Assembly: GCA_030789695.1 (NCBI GenBank)
Contig: JAULAV010003348.1
Location: 173,962 to 237,961, forward strand
Direction of reading: 5' to 3'
Source of the DNA: Scilla litardierei
Taxonomy: Eukaryota > Streptophyta > Magnoliopsida > Asparagales > Asparagaceae
DNA: 64,000 bases
Shown: positions 1 through 43,799 of the stretch, one piece after another
Layout of the letters: every line of letters begins with the position of its first letter
How positions within the stretch are numbered: position 1 is the first letter of the stretch
Program-made: the position numbers and the translations under genes
Notes under the pieces: model-generated
What the model was told of the DNA's origin: nothing
What the model saw: the letters and a program-made list of their open reading frames with translations, nothing else
Database searches by the model: none

Positions 1-539
1 AAAATGGGGTTTAAAGGCATCATGTTACGTTTAGTAATACCCAATAACTGTTGGCATGCAGCACAAGTCTTGCAATAATGAAATGTATCTTTAAACATAG
101 TTGGCCAATAAAAGCCACATTGCGAGATTTTTGCCACAGTTTTGTTCGCTGAAAAGTGTCCATCACATACTCCATAGTGACAAAATTGTATCACACTGGT
201 TATTTCATGATCAGGAATGCATCTCCTAACAATTTGGTCACTACAATATTTATATAAGTACGGATCATCAAAGAAGAAATATTTTACCTCGTACTTGAAC
301 CGTTTAAAGTCTTGAAGAGACCAAGTGTCAGGGGTCTTACCAGTTACCAGATAATTAACGATATCAGCATACCATGGAGAGGTGGAAACGCTAAAAAGAT
401 GCTCGTCGGTAAAGGAGTCCTTCAAAGGCACATCTGCTGAATCAAGGCCTACTGTCAATCGTGATAAGTGGTCAGTTACTAGATTCTCCACGCCTTTCTT
501 GTCCTTGATTGTGACATTGAACTCCTGCAACAATAAAAT
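1..539 (-). pseudogene. G1 integrase N-terminus (zinc-binding domain), partial
   Basis: Continues from RNase H in the same minus-strand frame. The linker contains the gypsy-typical stretch FNVTIKDKKGVENLVTDHLS. It is followed by the HHCC zinc finger, seen as H-X3-H around GVCDGHFSANK and CKTCAACQQ near positions 45-80. The D,D,E catalytic core lies to the left of the window. An in-frame TAG near 538-540, where the family normally has Trp, separates this part from RNase H. Integrase would insert the cDNA copy into nuclear DNA; this copy is not expected to be functional. Confidence 0.8.
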
Positions 540-2256
540 CTATCGTATCAATCGAGGCTTAGCATCTTTTTTAGACAATAAATATTTTAAAGCAGAGTGA
601 TCAATATATATCAAAATTGGTGATCCCAAAATATAGCTCCTGAATTTTTCCAACGCGAATACTACAGCCAGCAACTCCTTCTCTGTGGTTGTATAATTCC
701 TCTGAGCATCATTTAGTGTCTTGCTAGCGTAGTAAATCACTACTGGAACTTTGTCTTTTCTTTGGCCTAGGACTGCACCAACTACGTAATTGCTTGCGTC
801 ACACATTATTTCAAATGGTAGGGACCAGTCTGGCACCTGCAAAATGGGAGCAGAAATCAGCAACTTCTTTAAAGTTTCAAAAGAAAGTTGACACTCAGGT
901 GTCCAAATAAAATCCACATTTAAAGTAAGTAAGTTGCAAAGAGGGCGAGATATAGCGCTAAAATCTTTGATGAACCGCCTATAAAATCCTGCATGTCCCA
1001 AAAATGATCGATGTCCTTCACGCATTTAGGACTTGGTAGCTTCTCAATTACTGCTACCTTGGCTCTGTCTACCTGTATACCATCTTTAGAAACCAGGTGA
1101 CCTAGGACAAGTCCCTCTGTGGTCATAAAATGACACTTCTCCCAATTCAATAGGAGGTTCTTTTCAATGCACCTGTCAAGAACAAGAGCCAAGTTAGCTA
1201 AACAATCATGAAAAGAGCTACCATATACTGAAAAATCATCCATAAATACCTCAGCAATTTTCTCAACCATATCATCAAAAATACTGAGCATGCATCGCTG
1301 AAAAGTAGCTGGAGCATTACATAAACAAACGGCATTCTTTTAAATGCAAAAGTACTAAAGGGACAGGTAAAAGTAGTCTTTTCCTGGTCCTCAGGTGCAA
1401 TCTCAATTTGATAATAACCTGAATAACCGTCTAGAAAGCAATAGTACTCATGTCCAGCTACCCTCTCTAAAATTTGGTCAAGAAATGGAAGAGGGAAATG
1501 ATCTTTTCTAGTTCGGGAATTCAACTTTCTATAGTCTATGCACATCCTCCAACCTGTGGTGGCTCTAACTGGGATAAGTTCATTATTCTCATTTTTAACC
1601 ACAGTGAGGCCAGACTTTTTAGGAACAACCTGTGTAGGGCTAATCCACTTGCTGTCAGAAATAGGATATATAATGCCTGCATCCAATAATTTTAGTACCT
1701 CGCCTTTAACCACTTCTTTTAATGTTAGATTTAACCTACGTTGCATTTCTCTAGTGGGTTTGGCGTCATCCTCCAAATAAATGTGATGCATGCATACAAT
1801 AGGGCTTATACCTTTTATGTCAGCAATGGACCAACCAATAGCACCTCTATGTTTTCTCAGCACATCAAGTAAATAGCTTTCCTGTTCTAAAGAGAGTTTA
1901 GAAGATATTACCACAGGGAAGCTGTTTTCATTTCCTAGGAAGGCATACTTGAGATATTCAGGGAGTGGCTTTAATTCGGGCTTTGGATCCTCCACCTCTG
2001 ATGAAATTTGAATTGATGCATTAGGTGGCAAGGCCTCGAACCTAGGCTCCCATACCGCGTTAAGCTCCTTCACGTTCTCCTGCACAAAAGATATGTCATC
2101 AGAATCACCAATAAAAGTCTCAACAATAGAAGCATCATCACAAAATTCAGAACAAATATAATCATCCACCAACGAATCAATCATATGCACCCTCTCAATC
2201 TCATCATCCACATGTGGCAACTTGCAAGTATTAAAAATATTCAAGTCCAAAGTCAT
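540..2256 (-). pseudogene. G1 reverse transcriptase and RNase H (pol), broken
   Basis: The first part (2256-1340) has a spacer, then RT blocks such as WRMCIDYRKLNSRTRKDHFP and FLDGYSGYYQIEIAPEDQ. The frame shifts near 1340, just before the palm motif. The next frame (1291 leftwards) holds the catalytic FMDD box in AEVFMDDFSVYGSSF and VLGHLVSKDGIQVD. A second frameshift near 1015 leads into the RNase H part, with FEIMCDASNYVVGAVLGQ and TTTEKELLAVVFALEKFRSY. The order and motifs are those of Athila/Tat pol. Two frameshifts and a terminal nonsense codon make it a pseudogene. Confidence 0.9.
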
Positions 2257-3186
2257 ATTGCCAAAAGTAATTTTCAGTTGACCATCCCTGCAATTTATTA
2301 AAGCATTGCATGTCGCTAGGAATGGTCTACCTAGAATGATGGGAGTAGCATTGGCAATTTGGGGTCATTGGATGTCTAGAACTATAAAGTCCGCGGGGTA
2401 GTAAAATTTGTCCACCTGAACGAGGACATCCTCAATGCATCCCTTTGGAACTTTAATAGATTTATCAGCTAGTTGCAATATAACAGATGTAGGCTTTAGC
2501 TGTCCTAACCCAAGCTGCACAAAAATAGGATATGGCAATATTTTGACACTAGAACCTAAATCCAATAAAGCATTTCCAATCTTTTTAGTGCCAATGGTGC
2601 AAGTGATGGTGGGTGATCCAGGGTCTCTAAATTTAGGTGGTGTATTTTGTTGCACAATAGAGCTAACCTGTTCAGTCAAGAATGCTTTCTTTTTCACATT
2701 TAGTTTTCTTTTAACAGTGCACAAATCTTTCAGAAATTTAGCATAGGCAGGTATTTGATTAATAGCATCAAGCAAAGGAATATTGATCTGGCACTTCTGA
2801 AAAATTTCACGAATCTCAGTTTGATACTTATCTTTGTTCTTCTGAAGTAGCCGATGAGGGTAGGGTGCTGCAGGTACATATGCTGCGGGTTTCTTCTCTT
2901 TAATGACGCTTTTGCTCACACCCACGTCCGTGCTCTCTTCCTGCACCTCCTCTTGTTCTTTAATTCCCTCTTCTTGGATCTGAATTCCATCTTCTTGCTC
3001 AGCTTCTCTGCTCGGTGGGTCAGGCTTCTGAATCTCTTTTCCACTCCTCAAAGTGGACACCGCTTGGAAAGGCTTCATATTATTTCCTGCAGAAGACGAT
3101 GAGCCCATATTAGGATTTGGAATTGACTGAGATGGAAGCTTACCTTTTTCTAATGTCGCTGTAAGCCTCGCCAAGCTCTCGCTCAT
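2257..3186 (-). pseudogene. G1 aspartic protease region
   Basis: Starts directly after the gag stop codon, in the same frame. The N-terminal half is a charged linker rich in Glu and Gln, then the Athila-type segment DAINQIPAYAKFLKDL. The protease active-site loop reads ALLDLGSSVKILP, with Asp-Leu-Gly in place of the retroviral Asp-Thr-Gly, as is common in Athila. An in-frame TGA at 2365-2367 interrupts the protein; the conserved IILGRPFLAT flap-side motif follows it in the same frame near 2320. The enzyme would cleave the Gag-Pol precursor. Confidence 0.85.
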
Positions 3187-4478
3187 CTACTGATTCTGAA
3201 TCTGCTGAGCCTGAAATTGAGCCTGCTGCTGCTGCATCTGAGCTTGTTGCAATTGGATAAGCTGCTGAAGCGCATCGCCAAATGGTTGCATCTGCTGTTG
3301 TTGCATCGGTTCATGGTCCCTCCTTTGGTTCCCACCTTGATAGTTGTTGCTGTTGTATTGAGGTTGTCGGAACTGAGGGGGAGCCTGCTGCTGCTGAGTC
3401 TGCATATTGGGGCCCCAGTTTAAGTTTGGATTGTTGCGCCACCCCTTGTTGAAGTTCTGGTAATTCGAAGACACTTGATTCACCCCCGTAGGATTTCCAA
3501 GCATGCTCTTCAAGGCTGGAAGTGTGGGGCATGCACTGGTGTCGTGGCCACTAACGTCGCAAAGTGCGCAAGTCTGCTCTATCTCAACCGCCTTGCCTCT
3601 TTCAAATTCATGGCATGAAGCTTGTTTGAGATCATGGCCTCCATCTTTGCCTCCAACACATCCTCTTGCTTCAAATTGAATACCACTCCTCGTGTGGGCT
3701 GGGATGGTGCAGAGTGGCCTCCTCTCTCGTAGTCTGAAGTAGTGTCCCATGTCTGCGCATTTTCTGCTATCTCCTCCAGGTACATCCAAGCTTCGTCTGG
3801 CTCTTTATCAAAGAATCCTCCATTGCACATCATCTCTACAAATTGCTTCATTTGCGGCTGCAGTCCATCGTAGAAGAAGCCAATAATCCTGCTTTTGTCG
3901 AAGCCATTGTGCGGACATGCGAGCAGCAACTCATTGAACCTTTCAAATGCCTGATAGAATGTTTCCTCGCTTTTCTGGGCAAAGTTCATAATCTGCCGCT
4001 TCAGTCCCTGTGTCTTGTGAATAGGAAAAAACTTCTTTAGAAATTCAGCCTGCAAATCAATCCATGTAGTAATAGAGCGTGATGGCAATGCATTCAACCA
4101 ATTTTTAGCTTTGTCTTTTAATGAAAATGGGAACAGTTTAAGATATATCGTGTCCTCTCTAGTTTTCCCATCAAAGCATGTCAAGCAAACCTCCTCAAAT
4201 CCTTTAATATGGAGATATGGATTTTCCTTGTCTAACCCATGAAAGGTGGGTAAGAGTTGGATCACCACAGGTTTAAAATTGAAAGAATTTGCATCGGCAG
4301 GTAAAACAAAGCATGAAGCAGTGCTAGTCCTAGTGGGTCGAAGTAAATCTTTTAAAGTTCTAGGCACTCCAGGTTGCACATTATTTTCGTTGTTGTTGCT
4401 AAAATTTTCATCCATATTATTATTAGCCATATCAAAACGTCGAGTCAACCTATGTGTCCTAGGAGTCCTATGACACAT
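3187..4478 (-). pseudogene. G1 gag (capsid and nucleocapsid), frameshifted
   Basis: The capsid region matches the plant retrotransposon gag fold, with AKNWLNALPSRSITTWIDLQ and FLKKFFPIHKTQGLKRQI at roughly residues 130-170. The frame shifts near 3590; the new frame carries the zinc knuckle CALCDVSGHDTSAC (CX2CX4HX4C), followed by Gln-rich low complexity. An in-frame TAG at 3187-3189 separates it from the protease part and probably replaced a Gln codon of the poly-Gln tract. Gag would form the virus-like particle in the cytoplasm. The start at 4478 is the first Met of the frame; a Met at about 4430 (MANNNMDENF) is an equally good start. Confidence 0.88.
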
Positions 4479-4591
4479 AAACTAGCACAAATATTTTTTA
4501 TATAAAAGCAAACAAAAGTTTATATACAATAAAGTGGAAAGATCTCACCGAAGGTCTTCTGAATGAAATAAACCGCAGTAACAAACTGTTC

Positions 4592-4609
4592 TCCCCGGCA
4601 ACGGTGCCA
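4592..4609 (-). other. G1 primer binding site, Asp-tRNA type
   Basis: On the minus strand the sequence is TGGCACCGTTGCCGGGGA. It matches the 3' end of plant tRNA-Asp with one change (TGGCGCC expected). This is the site used by Athila-type elements. It fixes the LTR edge at 4616, after a short AGTTTT-type spacer. Confidence 0.85.
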
Positions 4610-4929
4610 AAAACTTGGTGGGCTCCGAAAGGTGCTTCTCTCAAGCGCAAGAGTCCGTTCAAGTAGTAAAATCTGGGAGTCCAGATGTCAAATCCTCGGG
4701 AGAAATCTGTTGAAACCACAAGCTTAAATCAAATAGAAAGTCTACGTAGAGAAACTAAACACGTTAATAATGAAAGTGATGATGGTGTGAAAGTGTGTCG
4801 TGAATACGTAATCAAAGCGAACAACGAAAGAGTCGTGTATGAAAATATATGAGAAACATGCACATGATATGGGTTCGTTAGGATCAGTGATTCGTGTATT
4901 TTGGTTGGTTAAATATAACTCAACAAATC

Positions 4930-5100
4930 CTCCTTTTGGGAGCGATTCATCGGAAAATACCCTTTTGGGGGTTCAAGCACAATTTGAATAAAAACGTCGC
5001 TAAAACTATAGTTCTACGAATATGGTATGAAGCTCTCTTTTGGAGAGATCAAATCTCACCCTTTTGGGGTGATCATCAACGTATTCGCTTCTTTTGGAAG
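4930..5100. repeat. Five hairpins with a constant TTTTG loop
   Basis: Five short perfect hairpins lie in series, each with loop TTTTG on the plus strand (CAAAA in the minus-strand transcript). Stems are CTCC/GGAG at 4930, ACCC/GGGT at 4959 (loop TTTTGG), CTCTC/GAGAG at 5033, TCACCC/GGGTGA at 5056 and CTTC/GAAG at 5088. The stems differ in sequence while pairing is kept. The block lies downstream of the presumed TATA box, so it would be in the element's RNA. Confidence 0.75.
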
Positions 5101-5539
5101 ACGAAAAGAGGATTAAATAGCAAAAACATACAATTTTAGCGACTTTTACGATGAAGAACAACAATGTTCAACCTAAATAACACGAATCACATCCCCTAAC
5201 TACTCCATATCATGCACAACAGAGATTTAGCTACGCATCATGCAAAAATAAACAACTTTCATAGCAAAATACATCAAGTTTATAGCAAAATACGCTAGAA
5301 AGCACCAAAATACGGGGTTTGAGTTAAAGGAAATATCACCAAATCTCCAAGTTTCGACTTCAAACTCTCTGGAAATAATAATAAAAGCCTCTGGAATTTT
5401 ACAGAATTTTTCAGGAAGAAGATACGGCTCCTAAGTGCTCCAATACGCCAATTATATGCCCAAAACCCTAGAAATACGCTTAAATAATAGCATTGCGGGT
5501 TTATTGGGCTTAACGGGTTCAAAATCTGCACCCGCTTCA

Positions 5540-6070
5540 CGCCCGAACGCATCTGAGCCGCACATCTCAACCGGATCAAACCACGGCCGCTCGATCAAGC
5601 GGGATTTAACACGGAGCTGCTACGTGTTCTTTAATGTTCGTGCCAAACCCGCATCCGCATCCGAACCAAACTCGGAGTTTATTTCGACCGTTCGATCACG
5701 CATCAAGGCCACACAACGGGCCACGTCACCTGCTCTGCGAGTTTGAATGCGAGAGATCTCGCGGCCGTAGGATCTTCATCCGTCGGTCACGATCTGGCCA
5801 CGTCGCCCAGACATGATGCGCTCGTTGAGTTCGAGCGGGTGAAGTAGTGGCCGTTGGATCTTGCAACGACGATCACGATCTCTCCGCGTCTTCGTAATCT
5901 GATGGCCAATCGTGGCCGTTCGATCTGTGATCGATGGCCACGATCTCTGCTGCCCGCTCGCGTACGCGTACGGTCTTGAATCGATAGCAGCCGTTGGATG
6001 GAGCAGCGGTCGGCGTAGATGCAGCCATGTGTCGAGCGCTGATTGGTCGGCGACCGTATTTCTCGTATTT
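5540..6070 (-). repeat. G1 U3 motif cluster, GGCCGTTNGATC-like
   Basis: Upstream (on the minus strand) of the TATA-like box the LTR is GC-rich. It holds many variants of GGCCGTTSGATC and its complement, for example GGCCGCTCGATC near 5585, GGCCGTAGGATC near 5763, GGCCGTTGGATC near 5850 and GGCCGTTCGATC near 5914, with CACGATCT copies in between. It is looser than the palindrome arrays of the other elements. Confidence 0.5.
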
Positions 6071-6182
6071 TGAGCGTATTTCTCCAATTAATTGGTATTC
6101 TGCATTCAAAAATTCATAGTAATTAGTACAGATCTCAGAAAAATACAAATAAATAGTCGTTGGAGTCGTGAGATCGAGACCA

Positions 6183-6519
6183 AGCTAGGAAAAATATAAA
6201 AAGTGCAGAAATGTGTCATTAAATGCTGTTTTGTGCTCAAATAGTGTGTTTTCTCTAATAAATAAATGTGTAGAAAATACGTATGAATTAGAGAACAATG
6301 TAGCATCACATGAGCACAAAATAGGGCTAAATGGGGGGTTAAATATGTAATATTGAACCCAAATCAAAGGGGCTCCTGCTGGGCACCATCGGGCTCGAGT
6401 ACATAGGTAGTTGGAAAGATGAGATCCATCTCTGGTCTCCACGCCCCACATGCAGGTCCAATGTGGGTCCGAGCAGGGCTCGAAAGCACCATGTCATCAG
6501 CTGAAAATGCACCCGGTAG
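6183..6519. other. Non-coding stretch between G1 LTR and G2 accessory ORF
   Basis: AT-rich sequence with short open frames only. On the minus strand a TTTAACCCCCC tract and TAGCCCTATTTTGTGCTC near 6310-6345 resemble the start of Athila-type LTRs, so the true outer edge of the G1 LTR may lie here. No gene is supported. Confidence 0.4.
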
Positions 6520-7558
6520 CTAACCCCAGTGGCACTGTTCGTGAGGACGCAGCATTCTTATACGGGCCATAACATCTATAGATAATGAGGTGGGGCCCGT
6601 AGAATGAAGCAAGCTAGCAGGAAGCTCAGTCCCGCACATGGGAGCTAGCAAATTGATCAGACTGCCACAATAGATCACCGTCCTGGCGGTGACAGATGAA
6701 ACAATGCGATCGAGATACCAGCTAGCTATATCAATAGAAATGATAGGGACTAAGATGTCCACGGTGCCCTCAAATGCTCTCTCTCTCTCACGTCATCGTG
6801 TAGAGCATGTAAATCTCAGGTGTAGACATCGTCCTAGACTCATACCTCGTCAGAATGGTGGTCACCAAAAGGCGCTGAGCAATCCGTAGGCAAGGGTGGA
6901 CGATAGAGGAGGCATTGGCCCGGCTAGGGTCAAAGGAAAGAGGGGATCCAGTGATCAAGGTCCAGAATGTGTGGATATCAAAGGAAGCAGGGGTGTGGTG
7001 CATGTGACCATATGCTCGGTTGGGGTCGGGGACAGGGGGCCAATGGAAGTAGGCACAGAGCATATCGAGAGTGATCTCACACTCCTGATCCATCAAGCAA
7101 AAGATGCACCCCCTAGGAGTCATACGAATAGAACTCATGACCTCTAGGGTCGGTCGGACATAGGTGTCCATCGACACCGACAGAAAGTCACGCCACCCCA
7201 CATTGTCGTACAACTGGAGTAGCCCCTGAAGTACCCCTAGGCACTCAAGGTCATCTATATGTGCGAACCTAGAGGGTACGATCGAACGCTGGGAGAGCCT
7301 CTCAAATTTGACGCGGTGTGCGTCATCTCTGAAGGTGATCCTAAACGTGTCGATCATCGTGGCGGGCTGTGCTGGTGGGGCTGGAATGGGTGAAGTGGGT
7401 GTCGGGAGTATGGCAGGTGGATCGCTAGGAGGCGGGGAGTCCGCTCTAGAGGAAGAGGGACCGGGTTCGTCGGACCGCTTCTGCTTAGAAGCGGGCTGCC
7501 GCACACGAGACCTAGTGCGTGGGGGCATCGTGGTGCCGTGAAACGTGCAGATAATCAT
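6520..7558 (-). pseudogene. G2 accessory ORF, ATHILA ORF-1 / plant transposon protein-like, frameshifted
   Basis: The main frame runs from 7558 to 6788 (256 codons). After a Pro/Ser-rich N-terminus with basic residues (RTRSRVRQPASKQKR) comes a globular domain: RSIVPSRFAHIDDLECLGVL, GWRDFLSVSMDTYVRPTLEV and FCLMDQECEITLDMLCAYFH. This order (RF...L..LG, GW..., Y..LTLEF-like, then a beta segment and LTL-like helix) is that of ATHILA ORF-1 and related plant-transposon proteins. The frame breaks in a (GA)n tract at 6778-6790 and continues in another frame to 6520 (ASWYLDRIVSSVTARTVIYC). No signal peptide or clear membrane segment is seen, so an envelope role is not supported. Upstream are an intron-like leader, a TATA box and a palindrome array. 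Confidence 0.65.
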
Positions 7559-8048
7559 AATGTTCTCAAAATAAAATAGGGAACGAGTGTACCATGCCCG
7601 ATGCGACTCCTCGTAAGCAACCTGAACGAGAGACGTCTCCCCTGCAGTTCCAAATCAACGAAGGATCTCCCCCATTCTACCCTTAAGTACACAAACAATA
7701 GATTAGCAATGAATATCACAAAATCGAGGGGTTGATCAAGAGAAATAGGCGTAAATAGGGTTCAATTTGGAATTGGGGTTGGGTTGGGCTTACGAAATGG
7801 GAAGAAGGAGAAAAGGTCGATTTTCGTCTTGGAGAACCGGCGATCGCTGGCGGGCGACGAGAGGTGCGGCGGCGGAGGGTGCTCCGGTGATGGGGGTGGT
7901 TGCGCCACTCGAGCGAGTCGCCGGTGGATCAGTCGAGTGGAGGAGAGCTTCGGACGAGTCAGGGGAGAGAGGGGGGGATTTGGGAGATTTGGGGATTTTA
8001 ATCCCGAGCTGTCGATTTTGAATTTTATAGTGTTAAGTCAGTTTGAGT
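7559..8048 (-). promoter_or_regulatory. Leader of the G2 accessory ORF with TATA box and possible intron
   Basis: On the minus strand TATAAAA occurs at 8023-8029, just downstream of the palindrome array and about 470 bases before the accessory ORF. Between them a possible leader intron runs from a GTAAGC donor (7793) to a CTGCAG acceptor (7642). No primer binding site is present near 7560-7640, so this is not a 5' LTR. It reads as an internal promoter and 5' leader. The intron is inferred from splice-site resemblance only. Confidence 0.45.
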
Positions 8049-8352
8049 CACTCGGCCGAGTGACAATTATCACTCAGCCGAGTCGCAATTAAAAACAGAG
8101 TTGGGTTTTTTTGATTATCTGTTACAGGCTCCTACTCGACCGAGTAGGAATAGTCGGTCGAGTGAGCTAAGCTGCTCGGCCGAGTGAACAGGCCACACCG
8201 AGCAATTAAAGAGCTTATAGTGTCAAATTCACTCGGCCGAGTGACAAATATAATTTCCAGAGAGGGGGTTTCGAGACTTTCTTGTACATTACCCTACTCG
8301 GCCAAGTAGGGTCTTCACTCGGCCGAGTGAACAAAGGTACTCGACCGAGTGG
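8049..8352. repeat. G2 internal palindrome array, core ACTCGGCCGAGT
   Basis: At least eight copies or variants of the self-complementary motif CACTCGGCCGAGTG are seen, for example at 8050, 8190, 8230 and 8318. Variants include ACTCGACCGAGT, ACTCAGCCGAGT and ACTCGGCCAAGT, plus half sites. The same core fills the 5' LTR of G2 at 51689-51966, which ties this internal region to the same element. Confidence 0.85.
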
Positions 8353-8777: not shown

Positions 8778-9201
8778 TGTTGAATATTGGACTCCCCGGA
8801 TTTGGTTTTGGATGATGAGCAAACATAAATAATTCATGAACTAACATTTGTGAGCGCAGTATTGGAGATCGTCGCCAAATTCACGAGAACAATCAAAGCG
8901 ACATCTCAACACTTCTCAAAGCTCGTATTCATGCCTAAAGCTTCGCTGAAGCTCTTGCGCCGTTTTGGAAGTTATGAAGAATTAATCGAAGCTCTCGACG
9001 ACCGTTCTTTAAGGTTTTATTTATAGTCTTTTAGCTTCGATCTATAGAATGTTAAGCCTTGAGTATATCTTACGATTCTATCTTCATAACGCTCATATCG
9101 TAGCTCTGGGATCTTAGTATAAGTTCATTCTAACTTCCTCGAAGCGTCGCGCTTCGATTCGGACTTGTTTATGCATGTTAGTTGGTACAAGAAGAAGTAC
9201 T

Positions 9202-9716
9202 GACCGACTAGATGGTGATCTAGTCGGTCAGCAACTCTTCTTGGACCGACTAGTTTGCTTCCTTAGTTTCTTGCACTTTACTGTTTACAGTTAGTCGGTC
9301 TACGTTGACTCACCGACCGACTAGTTTGTGAACTAGTCGGTCAGTGATGCTTCTTTGACCGACTAGTTATGACTTACTGTTCATACTAAATTTCTCCTAA
9401 GCTACTGTTTATCGTTAGTCGGTCTAAGAACGTTTGGTGACCGACTAGTTGACAATCTAGTCGGTCAACTTTTGTTCTTGGACCGACTAAGTCAATTTGT
9501 ATTCAGACTATTTCACTTTGCCTCTTAGTCGGTCTACGTTCACTGACTGACCGACTAGTTGTGAAACTAGTCGGTCAGAATGTCTTCTTGGACCGACTAG
9601 ATTTCTAGGTCTGAATTTCTATCTCTTCTCAGTTCCTCACTTAGTCGGTCCATGTTGTTTGACTGACCGACTAGTTGATGAACTAGTCGGTCAGTGGTTG
9701 TTCTCTGACCGACTAG
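9202..9716. repeat. C1 5' LTR palindrome array, TAGTCGGTC in alternating orientation
   Basis: The 9-mer TAGTCGGTC and its complement GACCGACTA alternate strictly along the block. Four full units of four sites are seen, plus a partial one at the start. In each unit an inner hairpin (GACCGACTAG, 8-9 base loop, CTAGTCGGTC) is enclosed by an outer pair, making an imperfect inverted repeat of about 75 bp. Spacers also pair partly. The block ends 55 bases before the TATA box. Confidence 0.93.
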
Positions 9717-9770
9717 TTTCCTCAGTTTTCTATCCGTTGGGAATTGACCTAACTTGTTTTTATGGGACCC

Positions 9771-9778
9771 TATAAATA
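9771..9778 (+). promoter_or_regulatory. C1 5' LTR TATA box
   Basis: TATAAATA follows the palindrome array. It would drive the gag-pol transcript from the LTR. The right LTR has the same box at 20526-20533. Confidence 0.8.
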
Positions 9779-10530
9779 CGAACCTAGGTCATTACTTTCT
9801 AGGTTAGAGCTGCCATTAAGAGATTCATTGAGATAGAAAGAGATAGCCATTCTCACTCATTTCCAAAGCTCTCTTCCTCACAAGAAACCCATTCTCTCAC
9901 TTTCTAGATCTAGAATCCATATTGAGGGAAGCTTGTTCTTGGTGAGCTCTTCAAGCTCTAGCTTGAATCAAGTCTCCAAATCTCTCCTAGGCACCTATTG
10001 CTGGTCATTTCCTTGGTGCTAGGTCTTGGTGACTTCATCTTCCTCAAATCCTTCCTTTCACCTATTTGGTAAGAAAAACTCAAGGTATAGGATTTTGTGG
10101 TAAGATTGTTTATTTCATTATAAACTTATTTATCTTGTTTATTGATTCTCTCGGTTGTGAGAGAAGGTTGTGATCCCGGGTTGTGGGATTCACTATTGCC
10201 ATTGCATGTATGATTTGATCTTGTGAAGGTTTTTCACAAGATATCATAGTGGAAATCTTGGGTTAGGGTTTCTAACCTAAGTATCCGTAGGGGATCCGGG
10301 TGGTTGGGACGTAGGATCACCGGGAACAAGTCGGGGAGACTTGGGTGGATCCGAACCCATTAACATCTCTTGTTAGCATTGTTAATTTTGTTGTTGTCAT
10401 TCAATTTAAGCTTCCGAAAATTGTTTTGGTAGTTGTTTGCACTATAATTTGGAATTATACTCCTTGTTATTTTTAAAGTACTATTCACCCCCCTCTAGTA
10501 CTTGTGCAGTAGCTTGTAGGGAATTACATT

Positions 10531-10542
10531 TGGTATCAGAGC
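10531..10542 (+). other. C1 primer binding site, initiator-Met tRNA
   Basis: TGGTATCAGAGC, the standard plant copia primer site, two bases after the LTR end. Confidence 0.95.
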
Positions 10543-10555
10543 CAGATACTTAGCT

Positions 10556-12796
10556 ATGTCTGCCAACGACAACAAGACCGTGCGTCCACCTTCCAACTAT
10601 GACACCTTCAGGTACCAAGAAGGAGCATCTTCGGTGATGGAAGGACATTCCTCTACGAGGCCTCCATTCTTCAACGGTACCAACTACGGGTACTGGAAAT
10701 GCCGGATGGAAACCTTCCTCTGGAGTGCGTCTCTATGGAGGACCACAATGAAGGAATACATCGAGCCCGAAGAAGAAGACTTTGAGAAATGGACTACCGC
10801 GGAGATCGCCGCGGAGGTAAGCAATGCCAAGGCAATGAACGCCTTGCAATGCGCATTGGAGCCCGAGGACTTCAATAAGATATGCACATGTAAGAGTGCA
10901 TATCAAATTTGAAACTCCCTCCTCATTCTTCATGAAGGGACGAGTAGGGTAAGAGACTCTAAACTCGTAGTCGTAAACAAAGATTACGAAATGTTTCATA
11001 TGCAACAGGGCGAGAAGATGAAGGAATATTACGCTCGCTTCGTTGACATAATAAACGAGTTAGAGGCCCTCGGCAAGTCCTACACTCAAAAGGAGAATTG
11101 CTCAAAGCTTATCGAAGGACTTCCTTCTTCTTGGGAGAAACGTACCTTCGCCATCGAGGAAGGTAATGCCATGAATAAGTATACCGTAGTTCAATTGATG
11201 GGTACTTTGATGTCATACGAGGTACGCAAAGATAGCAAGGTGAAGTTACAAGAAAAGATGAAGTCCTATTTGAACCAAGACGTGCCTAAGAAAAAGGCGA
11301 TTGCATTCAAGGCGGCTTCATCCACCTCTACCGATGATGAGGACTCGGAAGAAGAAATGGACATGGAATCCATTGCACTCATGGCAAAGAAGTTCAATCG
11401 CTTCTTCCGAAAGGGTAACTTCAAACAAAAATCTAAATTTACTTCTACTAACGCCTCTCCACCTTTGTGCTTTAAATGCAATAAGCCAGGACACATCAAA
11501 GCGGATTGTCCTCAAAACAAGCAAAAGGAGAAGTGGAAGGCGCCGAAGTTCGACAAGTCGAAGAAGTACAAAAAGGGGTACAAAAAGGGACTTGTCGGAG
11601 CAACATTCACCGACTCCGAGGATTCCTCAAGCGGAGAGTAGGACGATGAGAAAGTGGAGCAAGCGCACATGTGCTTCATGGCAAGAAAGGAGCATGATCA
11701 AGGATCTTCCTCCTCCGATGATAGTGATGACGAAAGCGATGAGGTAACTATGGATGACCTTAGGAATGCTAACTCTCAATTATGGTCTAAGTATACTAAA
11801 TTAGTAAATAGGTATACTAAAGTAAAAGATGACCTAGCTAGCATTCAAACCTCACCTAAGACTATCATCACCAACAACGACACCGTTGTTGAAGAGTTAA
11901 GAAATGAGATTATTAATCTCAAATCTAAACTTGAACATGTTAGCATAGATGATCCGGAGGAACATAAGATAGCGGATTTAACATCTCAAAACTCGACTTT
12001 GAGTATTGAGAACGAGAATCTTAAATCTCGTGTTTATGTGCTCACATCGCAAGTATCCAACTTGGATACTTCTATGCGTTCTCTCAAAGAGAAATATGAG
12101 AACACATTAGGCCGAATTAATAGATTCAATAAGGGTAAGGACCATTTGGATAAAATCCTAAGTGACTTACTTCCGGCCAATCACCACATTGGTTTGGGGT
12201 ATACGATGGGATGTTCATCCAAATTGGCCACTACTTTTGTTAGGCCAACTTCCGGTGACTCTACGAGTGGTAGCAAACACTCTATTGGTAGTTCATCTAC
12301 CAATGGTGCTTCCACCTCGTCCACACCCTCTTTCGGAAAGAAACCCACTTTGGGTGGACCTCCAAAGAAGGGACATGCTTATATGTACACAAATACCATG
12401 CCACGTAGGAACACACGTCCTACTCCACCGGCTCACACATATGATGATTTTTATGCAACACATTCTCGGGCACGTGCACACAATGTGAGACACCCTCACA
12501 CACGTGTTCCCACACATGCATATGTTCACCCACCTCATCATATGAATAATTCTCATCGTGCACCATTCCATCATGTTCCTTATGCCTATCCACGACATGC
12601 ATCACGTAGAAACCAACAACGCATGCATGCACCCAATAGGATGCGGGCTCCCAAAATTTTCACTATTTGGAGCCCAAAGGACACAAGCATGGATGAAAAA
12701 CAAGTGTATATGAATGCTTATTTTTCGGATGTTGTGCATAGTAGAAATTATGTGGGGAAGTCTAAGTCCAATTGGACTTGGCTTCCAAAGGTCTAA
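10556..12796 (+). pseudogene. C1 gag with three in-frame stops
   Basis: A single frame opens at ATG 10556 with FNGTNYGYWKCRMETFLWS, the usual copia gag start. Stops interrupt it at 10910-10912 (TGA where Trp is expected after SAYQI), 11639-11641 (TAG) and 12794-12796 (TAA). The frame itself never shifts. The middle part has the gag helices (CSKLIEGLPSSWEKRTFAIE) and the zinc knuckle CFKCNKPGHIKADC near 11467-11508. The C-terminal part has a coiled coil (about 11750-12150), the SIRE-type LDKILSDLLPANHHIGLGY, and an unusual His/Arg/Pro-rich stretch (12420-12650). Gag would form the particle. The third stop might mark the natural gag end, but this cannot be shown here. Confidence 0.88.
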
Positions 12797-15700
12797 TCTC
12801 TTGGACCCAATGACCTTGGGTACCATGATATGAATGTTTCTATCTTTAGGTACTCAAGGAAAAGAAAAAAGAAAAGGAGCAACAAATTTAAATTTAGCTC
12901 CAAAGGGAATTGGATACTCGATAGCGGGTGTTCAAAACACATGACGGGTGACGCTCAATTGCTCTCCGGAGTGGTTCCCATTGCAAATGGAAATCGCGTC
13001 GTATTTGGAGGCAACGAGAGCGGAACCATCGTCGGTGTTGGTAAAGTGGGTAACCCGTCTAAACCCTTAATTAGTGATGTTTATCTAGTTGATGGTTTGA
13101 ATCATAATCTTATTTCAATAAGCCAACTTTGTGACAAAGGTTACAAAGTTAGCTTTGCGAAAGGATTGTGTCATATTTCAAATGATAATAATAAATTATT
13201 ATTTTCCGGCACACGCCATAAAGATATTTATATTTTGGATCTTCCTAAGTCATATGAACAATGTCTCGTTGCCAACACAAGTGAACAACACTTATGGCAT
13301 CGACGCTTTGGACATGTGAACTTTGGAACACTTTATAAGCTTTTGAAATTAAATTCCATTAAAGGTTTTCCGAAACTCGTTTTTGAAAAGAAACGTTTTT
13401 GTGATTCTTGTCAACGTGGCAAGCTTCCTAAATCTTCATTTAAACCTAAGAAAAGCATTTCTACGAAACGGCCACTAGAGCTATTACATCTAGATTTATT
13501 TGGGCCAACTAGAGTTGCTTCCTTAGGAAATGCAAGATATGGACTTGTCATCGTCGATGATTATTCTAGATTTACATGTGTATTTTTCTTATGTAATAAA
13601 AATGAAGCTTTTGAAAACTTCACAATATTTGTGAAGAAAGTACAAAATCTCATCGGAACCACCGTTGTCACTATTCGTAGTGATCATGGGGGTGAATTTG
13701 AGAATGAGTCTTTCTCAAATTTTTGTGATGATCTTGGAATTACTCACACGTTTTCTTTCCCTCGCGCACCTCCTCAAAATGGTGTTGTTGAGAGGAAGAA
13801 TAGAACGCTTGTGGAGTGTGCTCGCACTATTCTCTAAGATAGTCAACTTGGTTATCAATTTTGGGCGGAAGCGGTACACACCGCTTCCTATGTGTTTAAT
13901 AGAATACTTTTGAGGCCTGGCACCAAACAAACTTGCTATGAATTGTTGTTTGGTAGATTGCCTCAAGTTAAACATTTTCGTGTTTTCGGCGCAAAATGTT
14001 TTATTAAAAACACATATGATAATTTGGACAAGTTTGATCCGAGATCGGATGAGGGGATATTTGTTGGGTATTCCTCACGTAGCAAAGCCTACCGGATATA
14101 CAACAAAAGATCCTCTACGATCGAGGAATCACTTCATGTCTCTTTTAATGAGAATTTTACTACTCCTAGAATTTCAAATGATGATGACTCTATGGATGTT
14201 TTATGTGATTCGTTTGAAAATTCTAAGTCTATTGATTCAATTGATTCTATTGATACTAACCCGACTAATGAAGTTGTTGAGAATGTACCTAGTGATCAAG
14301 GTATTCCCAAGCGGCTTCATACCGTTTGCGACCATCCCCATGAGCAAGTCATTGGCAATATTCAAGATAGTGTCAAGACGAGATCGCAAGTCCACCACTT
14401 CGCCAATTGTGCCTTTGCCTCATCGATAGAGCCAAAGAATATAGTTGAAGCGTGTGAAGATAGTGCTTGGATCCTTGCCATGGAGGAGGAACTCATTCAA
14501 TTCGAGAGGAATGAGGTATGGGAGCTTGTTCCTTTGCCATCGAAGAACCACACCATCATAGGGACAAAGTGGATCTTCAAGAACAAAACCGACGAAAACC
14601 AAGTCGTCGTCCGGAACAAAGCTCGGTTAGTTGCTCAAGGCTATCGCCAAGAGGAAGGTATCGATTTCGAAGAATCCTTCGCTCCGGTAGCTAGATTAGA
14701 ATCAATTAGACTATTATTGTCTTATGCATGCCATAAAAATTTTAAGTTATTTCAAATGGATGTTAAAAGTGCATTTTTAAACGGAGATGTTGAGGAAGTT
14801 TACGTTTCTCAACCTCCGGGCTTCATAAATGAAAAATTTCCAAATCATGTTTTTAAACTAAAGAAAGCTCTTTATGGGTTGAGACAAGCTCCTCGAGCTT
14901 GGTATGATCGCCTAAAGAATTTTCTTTTGGATTTGAATTTTAAAATGGGCGAAGCCGATTCTACACTTTTTGTTAAGCATGTGAATAATGATATTTTATT
15001 AGTTCAAATTTATGTTGACGATATCATTTTCGGTGCTACTAACTTCACTCTTTGCGAAGAGTTTTCTAATGTTATGAAGGAACAATTTGAGATGAGCCAC
15101 ATGGGCGAACTCAAATATTTCTTAGGTCTCCAAATTCGCCAATTGAACGATGCAATCTTCATCCACCAAACGAAGTATACGGTGGAGTTGCTTAAGCGAT
15201 TTGGAATGGAGAGTGCTTCCGGGAAAAAGACTCCAATGAGCACGACTACGCATCTTGACAAGGATGCAGGCGGTAAGGATGTAGACATTCGTCTATATCG
15301 AGGTATGATAGGTAGTTTACTTTATCTCACCGCAAGTAGGCCCGATATTATGTTTGCCGTATGCATATGTGCTCGTTATCAGTCTCAACCTAAGGAGTCT
15401 CACTTAGTAGCGGTAAAACGTATTTTCCGTTATCTAAGTTATACACTTGATTTTGGATTACTTTATCCAAAATCTAGCACGTATGAGTTAGTCTCATATA
15501 GTGATGCCGATTATGCGGGATGCAAATCCGACAGGAAAAGTACTAGTGGCACTTGCCATTTTCTAGGAAATTCTCTTGTCTCTTGGTTTTCCAAGAAGCA
15601 AAATTCCGTATCACTTTCAACCACCGAGGCGGAATATATTGCCGTCGGTGCCGCTTGTGCCCAGGTTCTTTGGATGAGACACACACTGAAGGATTTTGGT

Positions 15701-15961
15701 ATTCATTGTGATACTAGCCCTATCATGGTGGATAACCAAAGTGCTATCTGTCTTTCAAAGAATCCGGTGCACCATTCCCGATCAAAACACATAGATGTTC
15801 GATACCATTTTTTAGATGATCATGTTGCTAAAAAGGACATCATTTTAGTGTACGTTGAAACCCAAAAGCAAATCGACGATATTTTCACGAAACCACTAAA
15901 GGAGGACTCCTTAGTGCGGTTGCGTCGAGAATTGGGGATTATGGGTGAATCCGAGATATAG
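12797..15961 (+). pseudogene. C1 pol: protease, integrase, RT, RNase H; one internal stop
   Basis: The frame continues from gag. The protease active site is WILDSGCSKHMTGD (Asp codon 12920). Then come the integrase zinc finger (HLWHRRFGHVN, CDSCQRGK) and core with D,D,E in LDLFGPTRV, IRSDHGGEF and GVVERKNRTL. A TAA at 13835-13837 breaks the integrase; the same frame continues to 15961. RT shows [32 protein letters not shown] and the [10 protein letters not shown] palm. RNase H shows [28 protein letters not shown] and [20 protein letters not shown]. All catalytic motifs are kept, so decay is recent. Confidence 0.93.
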
Positions 15962-16205
15962 GATTCATATTTCATTCAATTATCTTGCATGCTATTATAT
16001 TTCGCGATATTTCGTTCATGCTAGATTTATTGAATTTTTGGGGATTTTATATGATTTGTTTGAATTTTTGCTCGAATTCTTATTTGAATGTCGTATTTAA
16101 GATTTCGACGTTTTGTGGGGTAGTTTAGATGACTAATGAGAGAGTTAAGATGTTTCATCCAAGTGGTTTATGAAGAGAACTCATTTATCAACTTTTGGAC
16201 TCTTC
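15962..16205 (+). other. C1 spacer after pol
   Basis: Short AT-rich spacer between the pol stop and the internal palindrome array. No gene or clear motif. Confidence 0.6.
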
Positions 16206-16590
16206 TAGTCGGTTTCAGTTCATTAGTCAACCGACTAGATGCTCATCTAGTCGGTCAGCTAGTGAACTCAGACCGACTAGTTCACGCTTTAATCTTCCTT
16301 TTGTCATTAACTTTCTTTAGTCGGTCACAGTACTCTTACCGACCGACTAGATTGAAAACTAGTCGGTCTGTGAGTATACTGCGACCGACTAACTCTAGCC
16401 CTAAAAATTTCTGTTGGCATCTGTTTCGACTTAGTCGGTTCTAGCTCATTGACCGACCGACTAGATCGTAATCTAGTCGGTCAGTGCTTGAACTGTGACC
16501 GACTAAGTGCGTTAGGGCAAACGCGTCTTTTCGCATTCTCGACCGACTTACATCACTTTCTAACCGGCTACTCTTCATTTTAGTCGGTCT
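16206..16590. repeat. C1 internal palindrome array, same core as its LTR
   Basis: Three units of the alternating TAGTCGGTC / GACCGACTA motif, laid out as in the LTR: outer site, inner hairpin with 8-9 base loop, outer site. The unit at 16318-16390 has partly complementary spacers too. A few loose half sites follow (16540-16590). Flanking sequence is not LTR sequence, so this is not a stray LTR fragment. It lies about 315 bases upstream of the accessory ORF. Confidence 0.9.
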
Positions 16591-16904
16591 ATTCTCAACT
16601 CCAGCTCGAAAACTCCAAAACCCCGATCGAACCCCTTCATCTTCCCGTCGTCTCCGGCCAGTTTTCAGGCCATCCCCGCCGTCCGTCACCGTCGACCCTC
16701 TCTCCTAGGTAAAACCCCTCTCCTAGCTCTCTTTTTCCAACCTAGGGTTTGATCTTGATCTTCATTTCAACTTCTAGGTGAACTAGGGTTTCGAATTTAA
16801 TCCTAGGGCTTGTCGACTTTGCATCTAGGGCTTGATTATTTCGATTTCTTTTCAGCTCTAGGGTTTGTGTAGCTTCGCTTGCTTGTTCTCGTCGTGCCAC
16901 GATC
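16591..16904 (+). promoter_or_regulatory. Leader of the C1 accessory ORF, with possible intron and telo-box-like motifs
   Basis: The leader is pyrimidine-rich. A possible intron runs from CTAG/GTAAAA (donor 16709) to TTTTCAG (acceptor 16855). CTAGGGTTT or CTAGGGCTT, resembling the plant telo-box found in leaders of highly expressed genes, recurs at about 16742, 16793, 16803, 16826 and 16859. No clear TATA box is seen. Function is inferred. Confidence 0.4.
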
Positions 16905-18563
16905 ATGGCAAAGACGAGGATCCCTATCACTTCATCTGGGGCTTCCCCCATGACTGTAGAGCCTTCTAACCCTAGGAATCCGTCTAAGCCCAAGCGCCGT
17001 GCTAAATCTACCCAAGCTTCTCCGTCTTCGCCTCCTCTGAAGAAGCAGAGGACGGCGACGGTCAAACCCAGAAAACTATCTAAGTCTAGAAAGCCCATAC
17101 TCCACACTCCCACTACTCCTCCTGATTCCGATACTGAGTTTATACCTGAGGATGAGTCTGGCCATAGGGAACCTACTCCTTCACTTCGTCCTAGGACTCG
17201 CCAGCCTAAGGGAAAGGGCCCAATGCCAGCGGGTGGTGTTGACATATCGTTATGTCGCGACGACCCTCTGTGTCTAGCGGCCTACAACCGTATTGAACAC
17301 TGCCCGATGCTATTGGAGCACTATGTTCAGTTTTCAGATTTCCTTGGCTTAGCTGACCTCCTCTCCTATAGTGGGCTCCTTGACTACCTTCGCTTCGACC
17401 CTAAGGCGAACCCTAGACCATATCCTCACCTGGTCAAATTATTCTATGCCAATCATGTCCGAGGCCACTACGATGAGAGTCACTCCATCGAGACTACTGT
17501 CTTGGGAACTCCTATAGTTCTCACGGCAGAAATCTTGGGGGAGGTACTTAGTTGTTCGTCGTCTGGTCTCCTTCCGTCGGATATTTCTGTTGATGATATC
17601 TCTTCCTTGGATCAGTCCGTTCTTTCTGATATCTTCCATGTGATCCCTCCTGCCTTCATTGGTGTTCCATCGAAGTCGTTCAAACCTAATGCATGGGTGC
17701 TAAATCTCATTCTGAAGTCGTGCTTGCTTCCCAAGTACGGCTCATCTTCTCTGCCATCCCAGCCGTTTCTCAAGCTGATTTACGCTCTTTTCTTGGGTTG
17801 CGAGATTAATTGGGCTCGCGTTATACTCGATAAGATGGACTCTTTCGAGTGTATTCGCAAGACCAATAAATCTGCGCATATCCCTTACCCGTGTCTGTTG
17901 ACCCTGGTTTTCCGTCATTTCCATGTCCCTCTCCCTCCTGACGATGAGCGTCCTTTGGGTCCTCCTCTGAACGCGACGGCCGTTAAGAAATCTCTTGCGG
18001 CGCTTCGTCACGTGCAGAGGTCGACCACATCTGCTTCCCAGGCCACTCCCTCAGCTGCTGCAGCCCCCACTCCTTCTGCCACATTAGATGATGTCGTACG
18101 CCTTCTTCGTCGGCACGAGTCGCGCTTGGCTCGTACCGAGGAGGTAGTTTGCCGTATGGCTCGTTTGATGGGCATTGAGCTTCCTCCTTCCGTTTCTGAG
18201 GATGAGGAGATGGACGATGAGGATATTGATGATCTTGTCACTTCCTTGGCTCGTGGCGATGAGGCCACTGCTGCTGCTGCTGCTACCACATCTTCTCCTG
18301 GTGTTGGCACCACTTCCGGTGCTCCAGAGACTTCTGCACCAGTAGTCCAGACTTCTGAGGCTGCTGCTACTCCTGCTGACGAGCCTGCTCCTGTCTTACC
18401 TGCTGATACTCCTGTTGAGACCCCTGCCGTTGAGCCAGTCGTTGATGTCTCCACACCTGCCCCGACGATCCCGTCTGTTGACACGCCTCTCCTCCCTGCA
18501 GAGCCTGAGTCCACTCCGTCGATTGGACCCACGGAGACTGCAGATCCAGCCACTTCCTCGTGA
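16905..18563 (+). CDS. C1 accessory protein, putative plant transposon protein-like
   Basis: An intact 552-codon ORF lies between pol and the 3' LTR, the place where SIRE elements carry an envelope-like gene. Residues 1-110 are Pro/Ser-rich and basic, with nuclear-signal-like clusters KPKRRAK and KKQR. Residues 115-370 form a globular domain: NRIEHCPMLLEHYVQFSDFL, LVKLFYANHVRGHY, then TPIVLTAEILGEVL. The LV-(x)-FYAN...VRG pattern is that of the 'putative plant transposon protein' family (related to ATHILA ORF-1 by layout). A short coiled coil (394-423) and an acidic patch follow; residues 450-552 are Ala/Pro/Thr-rich. No signal peptide or membrane segment is visible, so it is not an obvious envelope. 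It is unbroken although gag-pol has four stops. Start: first ATG after the possible leader intron. Confidence 0.8.
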   Translation: MAKTRIPITSSGASPMTVEPSNPRNPSKPKRRAKSTQASPSSPPLKKQRTATVKPRKLSKSRKPILHTPTTPPDSDTEFIPEDESGHREPTPSLRPRTRQPKGKGPMPAGGVDISLCRDDPLCLAAYNRIEHCPMLLEHYVQFSDFLGLADLLSYSGLLDYLRFDPKANPRPYPHLVKLFYANHVRGHYDESHSIETTVLGTPIVLTAEILGEVLSCSSSGLLPSDISVDDISSLDQSVLSDIFHVIPPAFIGVPSKSFKPNAWVLNLILKSCLLPKYGSSSLPSQPFLKLIYALFLGCEINWARVILDKMDSFECIRKTNKSAHIPYPCLLTLVFRHFHVPLPPDDERPLGPPLNATAVKKSLAALRHVQRSTTSASQATPSAAAAPTPSATLDDVVRLLRRHESRLARTEEVVCRMARLMGIELPPSVSEDEEMDDEDIDDLVTSLARGDEATAAAAATTSSPGVGTTSGAPETSAPVVQTSEAAATPADEPAPVLPADTPVETPAVEPVVDVSTPAPTIPSVDTPLLPAEPESTPSIGPTETADPATSS

Positions 18564-19532
18564 TCGTCTGTTTCGAGGACTCTCCACTGCTCATTGGATG
18601 ATATACCTGTTTGAGAGTGTTTTGGGTTAGGATGGGATGGATTTTGGGTGTTGATTTGTTGTATTTTGATATGTTGGATGTCGGTGTATGTGTTGTATTT
18701 TTTGTTGGATGTTGATGATGGTGTTCTGATGATGATGATGTATCGATGATGTATGATGTATTTCTTTTTGATGGGTATGTTGCATTTGATGTAGTCGATA
18801 TCTTTTTGGATGTACTCCTGATGTTTTTATATATATACATCGATCTTCTCTTTGTATTATTTCGTCGTGCACATTTTAATTCTCATTCAATGTCCATGAT
18901 ATGTGAAATCGTCGCTCGACGATTGAAAAGCTTGGTTAAATAGATTGAAATTCTATAATTGTATAGAATTGTTTTCCATGCACCAATTTAACCAGGAATA
19001 TTGAATATTGAAGAGTATGTTTCTTTATTCAAGAAATGAATAAAATTTTTTTTGGTATTTTTGATGCTTTTAATTATCGTTTTTTTATAATGGATAATTT
19101 GGCACACCCTGATTTGATTTCCACACTTTTCCCTTGGTGTCAATTAGGTCCATCGTCATTGTCTACGACTCCCGATGTTGGATTTTCCATTTCCTAGTTG
19201 TTGTCGTTGTATGCCCCCCATTTTTGGGATAATGCCAAAGGGGGAGAGATAATGATAATAAATAGGTCAAATGAAAATTTAACTCATTTTCCAAGAATCT
19301 AATTTGATGTGGTAGATTCATAGGGAGTTAAGATATATATAAGGATTTTCAAAATCCGATATTTCAAAAATCGATTCTCATTATATATCTTACTCGTCTG
19401 ATTGATGCAATTTATAAATATTCATTTTGAAATTAACGTGTCATCAATGCAGGGGGAGTAAGTATTTTACATTTGAATCATTATTTTTGATTATTATTTA
19501 TGTTGGTTTGTCATCACCAAAAAGGGGGAGAA
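18564..19532 (+). other. C1 3' region with two polypurine tracts
   Basis: Non-coding, AT-rich, with a TTG/GATG-rich simple stretch (18640-18760). CCAAAGGGGGAGAGA near 19235-19248 is an internal polypurine tract. AAAAAGGGGGAGAA at 19519-19532 abuts the 3' LTR and would prime plus-strand synthesis. Two such tracts are usual in SIRE-like elements. Confidence 0.7.
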
Positions 19533-22239: not shown

Positions 22240-23118
22240 GTACTCTAGAAATTCGGCTAACTTATTTTACATCTTGGCCTTCGTCAACCGTTGCAGAAAC
22301 GTTACGGGTGGCATGTAGGTTCACTCCTTTTGAGGTTCATCCGCTTCAGATTTTTCTTCGTTAGTTGCCGTCTTTGGGCTATCTTCTTCATTGATTTGCT
22401 CCTTTTCAACCGTAATTTCCTCCCTTGGGCTTTTGGCTTGAACTATAGCGGGAGTGGTATCCTTCCCGCCTTTCATAGTCACCGCCACTACCACATTAAT
22501 GTGGCCGGTGTTGCTCCTCAGGTTTTGCTCCGGTTGAGTTTGTAATTATTGTTGAGCCTTGTTGAGCAAAGTGATTTTCTCCGCCAGTTGTGCCACAATA
22601 GTATTGAGAGAATATTGGCCCGCCGTCAGTTTCGCATTGATCTTCTTTTGCTTGGACATGAACTCCTCAACTCTAGCTTCATGCTCGGATCTTAGAGATG
22701 CCGGCGGTGGGATTTGTGGTCTCCATCCTTGGTTATATCTGGGGTCTATAAGGCCCTGCTTGTTGCCTTTGTTGATATTGTTGTTGTTGGGGTGGCCTTT
22801 GTTGATACGATTATTGTTGTGGAAGGGGCCGGGCTTGTTGTTATTGAGGTGGTGGTTGTTGATGAGGGGGAGTCAAGGCTCCCTCATTACTGGCATAAGA
22901 AAATCCGGGGTGACCCTTGGTAGCCGGATTCACCCAATAACCGTTGTTCCCCCCACCGGCAACGTATTGCACTTTCTCCATGGCTCCTTCATTTTGCTCG
23001 CTCCCAACAAACATAACTTGGCCTTGGTCTAGCCAATCACTCATGCTCCCTCCAGATATTGGCATGTTAGGAACTCCATAAGAACTTTGTGGTCAACTCC
23101 GCCACTGCATTTGCTTCA
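22240..23118 (-). pseudogene. G2 gag, second half, degraded
   Basis: Minus-strand gag C-terminal sequence lies directly right of the protease. The stretch QYVAGGGNNGYWVNPATKGH (in 23065-22841) and the following Pro/Gln-rich repeat are typical of Athila gag after the capsid. Several frame breaks occur between 22840 and 22240. It ends at the G3 insertion; the other half resumes at 49579. Confidence 0.7.
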
Positions 23119-29278: not shown

Positions 29279-29328
29279 CGTTTTTCCTGTGGTTTTGGAC
29301 CCGATCCGTTAGGGCTCGGAATGGGGGC

Positions 29329-37357: not shown

Positions 37358-37358
37358 C

Positions 37359-43781: not shown

Positions 43782-43799
43782 CCGTGGCTCTGATACCAC

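Follow-up and report, generated by a model that had tools for sequence, protein, structure and literature searches.

Two LTR retrotransposons of different superfamilies carry the same kind of short-site array twice, once in the LTR and once upstream of an accessory ORF, in the 64-kb window, i.e. the whole stretch of DNA analysed. One, G2, reads as an Athila-like Ty3/gypsy element; the other, C1, is a Sirevirus (Ty1/copia) inserted into G2. Within each element, the LTR array and the internal array are built on the same CGG-CCG core and on a spacing of ~21 bp, and the core differs between the two elements. We suggest, giving the proposal slightly better than an even chance, that a single DNA-binding factor, acting cooperatively, recognises the array at the genomic (LTR) promoter as well as at the accessory promoter and switches both. 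The evidence base is two elements with one copy each, and the features concerned are listed in Table 1.

Table 1. Location of the elements, arrays, putative promoter boxes and accessory ORFs in the window.
Feature	Position	Strand	Description
G2 5' LTR	50546..52269 (about)	-	starts TGATAGGCTC, ends GATCA, then PBS-like TTGGCACTGTTGACGGGG
G2 LTR array	51690..51965	.	9 cores ACTCGGCCGAGT (≤2 mismatches), three triplets, 21-22 bp spacing
TATA-like TATTTAA, G2 LTR	51599..51605	-	~85 bp downstream of LTR array
G2 protease (PR) region	21286..22266	-	weak PF13650 match, collinear with G1 PR
G2 internal array	8050..8350	.	9 cores: pair, triplet, single, triplet; 4/8 gaps 21-22 bp
TATAAAA, G2 internal	8023..8029	-	~20 bp downstream of internal array
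G2 leader intron-like stretch	7642..7793	-	GTAAGC...CTGCAG, T-rich, after C-rich leader; splice signals by eye
G2 accessory ORF (P0002), stop to stop	6788..7654	-	partial PF03078 (ATHILA ORF-1) match; candidate ATG 7558 or 7528
C1, Sirevirus inside G2	8778..21284	+	LTRs 8778-10527 and 19533-21284, 99.1% identical; PBS TGGTATCAGAGC
C1 5' LTR array	9179..9715	.	20 half-sites TAGTCGGT/ACCGACTA (≤1 mismatch), five groups of four on alternating strands, 21 bp within group
C1 internal array	16206..16588	.	15 half-sites: 3 groups of 4, same geometry as 5' LTR array, plus 3 trailing sites
C1 leader intron candidate	16709..16855	+	GTAAAA...TTTTCAG; splice signals by eye
C1 accessory ORF (P0003), stop to stop	16836..18563	+	575 open codons, PF20167 Transposase_32, candidate ATG 16905, basic patches
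Element B, Sirevirus-like tandem	30942..46155	-	GC-rich palindrome array in each of 3 LTRs; in-window control
Element A (holds B)	23124..49573	.	inserted in G2 gag, TAGAT at both flanks
G1, second Athila-like element	1..6361	-	5' LTR about 6361-4616, gag, RT, RNaseH; cut by window edge; downstream of G2 accessory ORF

The 64 kb read as plant DNA made up of nested LTR retrotransposons, in which two nested insertions interrupt G2 and a third element cuts it. The flanks of the C1 insertion are CTTAG/CTTAT, with four of five bases alike, and the LTR copies of element A are 97.6% alike over 3416 bases. G1 appears to have inserted into G2, with one G1 end lying in the window; because G1 begins downstream of the G2 accessory ORF, the 3' LTR of G2 is not seen in the window.

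Judged from its sequence, G2, which runs on the minus strand, is a Ty3/gypsy element of Athila-like type. Its gag-PR is identified as Ty3/gypsy-type through alignment to G1, in which Pfam profiles match gag (PF03732), RT (PF00078) and RNaseH (PF17919/PF17917). When translated frames, with X in place of stops, were compared by BLASTP, the first G2 gag piece matched G1 twice, at 38% identity (E 4e-26) and at 29% (E 4e-06), each time in a different frame; the second gag piece matched once (22%, E 5e-05), as did PR (34%, E 6e-36). The gag pieces on either side of element A, together with PR, are collinear with the gag-PR of G1. An Athila accessory ORF (PF03078) follows after pol, and the assignment is further supported by PBS and post-pol motifs that we take to be those of Athila. 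The PR ORF reaches the flank of C1, and beyond C1 the sequence resembles the post-pol region. A complete pol in G2 was considered and rejected: no RT, RNaseH or INT lies between PR and the post-pol region or array, and because these are missing, this pol-deleted copy is defective. The G2 LTR and the internal array are assigned to one element by strand, order and insertion flanks, in place of an intact element.

The preliminary description of this DNA had claimed that the internal array of G2 shares its core with the LTR of the same element, and the counts bear this out. With at most two mismatches, ACTCGGCCGAGT has 19 matches in the 64 kb compared to a mean of 1.30 and a maximum of 5 in 100 shuffles. 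Nine of the matches are at 8050-8350, nine at 51690-51965 and one at 7907 in the G2 leader; the last was excluded from the spacing counts. The window holds 25 different perfect palindromes of 12 bp; of these, ACTCGGCCGAGT is the commonest at ≤1 mismatch, and the 13 copies found at this threshold are confined to the two G2 arrays. The three triplets of the LTR array have gaps of 21,21 / 21,22 / 22,22, and its 6 of 8 gaps of 21-22 bp were equalled by random placement in 0 of 200,000 trials. The internal array is less regular, with one gap of 18 and one lone core (pair, 22; triplet, 18,22; single; triplet, 21,22), and its 4 of 8 gaps of 21-22 bp were equalled in 0.03% of 200,000 trials. For both arrays together, at least 10 of 16 gaps in any 2-bp class occurred in 0 of 100,000 random trials.

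The C1 element has the copia order of gag, integrase and RVT_2, the PBS TGGTATCAGAGC and an ENV-like ORF between pol and the 3' LTR, as expected for a Sirevirus. The CGG centres of its half-sites are 21 bp apart, in groups of four on alternating strands. Gaps of exactly 21 bp account for 15 of 19 in the 5' LTR, for 14 of 20 in the 3' LTR, where an extra near-match divides one 21-bp gap, and for 11 of 14 in the internal array, the last three sites of which (-,-,+; two with one mismatch) break the alternating pattern. Within a C1 unit, the first and third spacers have an identity of 0.244 versus 0.263 shuffled; being unlike each other, they speak against short tandem duplication as the cause of the 21 bp. 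Over 1751 positions, 14 base differences and one gap separate the two C1 LTRs, and the gag-pol region (10913-15961) has at least three in-frame stops, while the accessory ORF is open throughout.

An internal array resembling that in the LTR could simply be a displaced LTR piece without function, generated by template switching or recombination. In C1, the LTR and internal spacers have an identity of 0.497 compared to 0.272 when shuffled, and because the spacers are still alike, the two C1 arrays share an origin, which favours such a displacement. The G2 arrays also match each other by BLASTN, triplet on triplet, over at most 58 bases with the cores included (best E 7e-10). However, once the G2 cores are masked, nothing better than E 0.35 remains, and the G2 internal array is therefore unlikely to be a displaced LTR piece; a nested LTR fragment, the outcome that the preliminary description had set against its own reading, is disfavoured for G2. 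Moreover, the cores have outlasted the spacers in both elements. In C1, core columns (≤4 bases from the CGG centre) hold 1.80 bits versus 0.99 for spacer columns in eight groups. In G2, the identity over the 9 bases beside the core is 0.307 versus 0.253 shuffled (sd 0.007), with 0.379 versus 0.254 for the three bases adjoining the core and 0.272 versus 0.254 for bases 4-9 (17 of 500 shuffles as high). What the two G2 arrays have in common is the core, the nearest bases and the spacing. Finally, the same position before the accessory gene is printed for nine Sireviruses in the accessible text of PMC2829016. A displaced and functionless LTR piece is, in our view, very unlikely. The 18 G2 core copies hold 16 deviations; 8 of them are changes of C>T or G>A that fall on CG or CHG positions and could be methylation decay. 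As a point against our reading, gene conversion between the arrays could also be what keeps the cores alike.

A TATA-like box follows three of the four arrays (C1 LTR, at 9771; G2 LTR; G2 internal), and none was seen by eye near the C1 internal array. Because TATAAAA has 26 copies in the window, counting both strands, the chance of meeting one on a particular strand in a 60-bp stretch is ~1%. In G2, the array is followed at ~20 bp by TATAAAA, a C-rich leader, a 152-nt intron candidate and the ORF; in C1, the array is followed by a C-rich leader, a 147-nt intron candidate and the ORF. The first part of the leader is 45% C in G2 and 44% C in C1, and the intron candidates are 34% T in G2 (counted on 7645-7793) and 40% T in C1; between the two leaders, there is no match better than E 0.23. 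The minus-strand order of TATAAAA, intron candidate and ATHILA ORF-1-like ORF that the preliminary description had given for G2, and, TATA box apart, the same order with a different core in C1, are as it stated, and the profile search that it had proposed for both accessory ORFs identifies PF03078 in G2 (E=1.3e-9, covering model positions 55-225 of 458) and PF20167 in C1 (E=7.4e-17).

No relationship between the two accessory proteins was detected: BLASTP of P0002 against P0003 gave E 0.33 and no alignment, and in Pfam, even at E 10, neither protein hit the family of its counterpart. With a simple pattern, basic patches were found in P0003 (residues 53, 69, 79 and 341) and none in P0002. A transmembrane segment is expected to reach a hydropathy of 1.6 over 19 residues, and the highest values are 1.16 for P0002, which is incomplete, and 1.55 for P0003. 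Structure models had a mean pLDDT of 31.8 and 39.3, and because this is too low for use, they yield no DNA-binding fold. Searches gave no homologue of P0002 at E 0.001 among 719 candidates and none of P0003 at E 10 among 7992 candidates; in the PDB, P0003 had no match and P0002 one insignificant match (E 0.85). In viral_contigs, there was no homologue of the C1 accessory ORF, the C1 RT or the G1 RNaseH, and CACTCGGCCGAGTG had hits in 67 stretches, with a single exact site listed for every one of them.

In the model that we favour, one element-specific cis array would underlie two putative promoters in G2, and likewise in C1. Of the two, the LTR promoter would give rise to the genomic RNA, and the internal promoter would drive a separately transcribed accessory gene with a leader intron. 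The factor would be sequence-specific and probably dimeric or oligomeric, and it would recognise the CGG-CCG half-sites; cooperative binding is proposed because the sites recur at ~21 bp, i.e. after two helical turns on the same face. The lead candidate for this factor, and a lead only, would be the accessory protein itself, acting in a VANC/Tas-like manner and giving rise to a self-reinforcing circuit. We infer promoter activity, splicing, binding and co-regulation in both elements, and the LTR and accessory promoter may be under one element-specific control, as the preliminary description had it.

Several known systems share parts of this design. In foamy viruses, a single factor, Tas, switches the LTR promoter together with an internal promoter that precedes the accessory genes. 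The dual-promoter plan is like that of G2 and C1; however, foamy viruses are animal retroviruses, and the likeness drawn here is in layout. According to the accessible text of PMC5735166, VANC anti-silencing proteins bind motifs repeated in their own VANDAL transposons, and coevolution of motif and protein has been proposed; the word stem palindrom- is absent from the main text. As in our model, a protein encoded by a transposable element is paired with a short motif repeated in the element's own non-coding parts. By contrast, VANDAL elements are DNA transposons rather than LTR elements, and binding has been demonstrated for VANC, while here the case is made from sequence. Grande gene23 (Gomez-Orte 2013, as described in the accessible part of PMC7264820) is an accessory gene of a plant LTR element with its own promoter and a nuclear product. 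It differs in being antisense to gag-pol, and the same part of that text makes no mention of an array common to gene23 and the LTR. The function of ‘env-like’ genes in plant retrotransposons is called ‘rather speculative’ in the accessible text of PMC6317226 and unclear in that of PMC7264820.

The closest precedent is the Sirevirus system itself. In the accessible text of PMC2829016, Bousios et al. (2010) describe palindromic CGG-CCG RM boxes in the Sirevirus LTR upstream of the TATA box and, in nine ENV-containing Sireviruses, boxes of the same consensus again mostly upstream of ENV. Among box-bearing Sireviruses, linker boxes are present in 9/9 with ENV and in 0/4 without ENV, and the text supports the idea of an internal promoter. 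It also lists multiple PPTs and an inverted repeat round the 3' PPT as Sirevirus traits. Six further ENV-containing Sireviruses wholly lack boxes; therefore, the boxes are dispensable for some accessory genes and the link between boxes and ENV is not universal. C1 has CGG-CCG boxes in the LTR before the TATA-like box and before the ENV-like ORF, i.e. the layout of the RM-box system, built on a core of its own and coupled to a PF20167 ORF. G2, too, has CGG-CCG boxes before its LTR TATA-like box and before its accessory ORF; however, it reads as a Ty3/gypsy element and not as a Sirevirus, and because of this it resembles the RM-box system without being a member. The accessible text of PMC2829016 makes no mention of a 21-bp spacing, and no Athila counterpart of the RM boxes was found in the open-licence literature. 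Thus, the Sirevirus layout has been in print since 2010, and we did not find the Athila-like case and the common ~21-bp spacing in print. That text calls the boxes Sirevirus-specific, with Ty1/copia elements as its comparison set, and the Ty3/gypsy case counters this statement.

The arrays might instead have captured a transcription factor of the host, one that binds half-sites of the CGG or ACCGAC type, such that both promoters come under stress or tissue control and the accessory protein does something else. LBD and DREB proteins are host factor classes with such half-sites. The C1 half-sites contain ACCGAC, which we take to be a DREB-type site, and the cores of the two elements differ yet keep CGG-CCG. 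Moreover, according to the accessible text of PMC2829016, the PLACE entries matched by RM boxes were mostly stress-related sites. On the other hand, a host factor alone leaves the association between boxes and ENV reported there (9/9 versus 0/4) unexplained, unless the gene simply needs a promoter. This explanation, which overlaps with that of a single factor reading both arrays, is in our estimation a real possibility that falls somewhat short of probable.

The palindromes could also act at the RNA level, as hairpins or as sources of small RNAs in silencing, rather than as protein sites. The length of 21 is also that of a plant siRNA class. Palindrome clusters of maize Sireviruses attract an excess of small RNAs (Bousios 2016, as described in the accessible part of PMC10760457); however, a role as small-RNA source may be a side effect. 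A hairpin fits poorly with the G2 arrays: across the 18 copies, not one of the 16 departures from the core is accompanied by a compensating change in the mirror arm, and a 12-bp gapless palindrome is poorly suited to form one. Also, the 5' LTR copies lie upstream of the TATA-like box and hence outside a transcript starting there. We consider an RNA-level or silencing feature very unlikely.

The preliminary description had gone on to read G2 and C1 as two superfamilies converging independently on the same system. The layout of array and accessory ORF does occur in one Ty3/gypsy and in one Ty1/copia element; by contrast, ‘independently’ and ‘converging’ lack support in that form. The Sirevirus half was already published (PMC2829016, accessible text), a sunflower Athila ORF carries PF20167 (PMC11728184, accessible text) and the CGG-CCG signature and the ~21-bp spacing are common to both elements. 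Because these last two are shared, transfer between elements or descent from a common origin stands on an equal footing with convergence. In the accessible text of PMC11728184, PF20167 is called related to PF03078 and nuclear localisation is predicted for the sunflower ORF; a second Athila ORF described there is antisense and has a transmembrane helix. In the accessible text of PMC6317226, PF03078 is recorded for 16% of Athila elements, and 74% of SIRE elements are said to carry 3' sense ORFs, which fall into 19 groups that resemble one another little or not at all. We speculate, with considerable doubt, that the products of the ‘env-like’ genes in Athila and Sirevirus elements are nuclear activators or anti-silencers with sequence specificity. 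These would bind CGG-CCG arrays phased at 21 bp, both in the LTR of their own element and in the promoter of their own gene, as a self-reinforcing switch; gene and array would have moved together, as a cassette, between elements of Ty1/copia and Ty3/gypsy, with each family drifting to its own core. The Ty3/gypsy case raises the possibility of regulatory cassettes common to retroelement superfamilies. An LTR-matched, two-turn-spaced array before ‘env-like’ genes turns the question of their function into a binding test with a 12-bp probe.

Other elements in the window serve as comparisons. Element B is a tandem of the form LTR-int-LTR-int-LTR, in which the middle of the three LTRs is common to both internal regions, and it has the PBS TGGTATCAGAGC and a copia gag match. 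In the LTR copy at 31.9 kb, its palindromes, of which GCGGGCGCGCCCGC is an example, recur at intervals of ~23-24 bp. Neither internal region contains GCGGGC/GCCCGC, a Pfam search of one of the two internal regions (up to 35630) gave no accessory-gene match, and the ORFs of ≥120 aa in both regions are of 214, 246 and 127 aa. B was rejected as a third full case, its arrays being in the LTRs only. With LTR arrays, none internally and no accessory match in the part scanned, it agrees with the rule printed in the accessible text of PMC2829016. Element A was likewise rejected, its LTR copies having no CGG-CCG palindrome cluster; at E 0.01, a Pfam search of the six frames of 26631-31130 gave nothing. 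Both of its LTR copies contain a tandem repeat of 113 bp (1.9 copies), at 25664-25873 and 48604-48813.

The accessory region of G1 lies outside the window. On the minus strand at 5585-5925, its LTR has five near-copies of GATCNAACGGCC, which are CGG-bearing and direct rather than palindromic, with gaps of 65-101 bp and without 21-bp spacing; they lie upstream of a TATTTAAG box, and a further match is at 30846. About 1.5 kb beyond the G2 LTR, a minus-strand ORF at 53781-54479 matches PF04195 (Transposase_28), a family reported in antisense accessory genes of Retand elements in the accessible text of PMC11963269. At 56436-56606, there is a 59-bp tandem repeat (2.9 copies) with an imperfect CTCAC/GTGAG palindrome.
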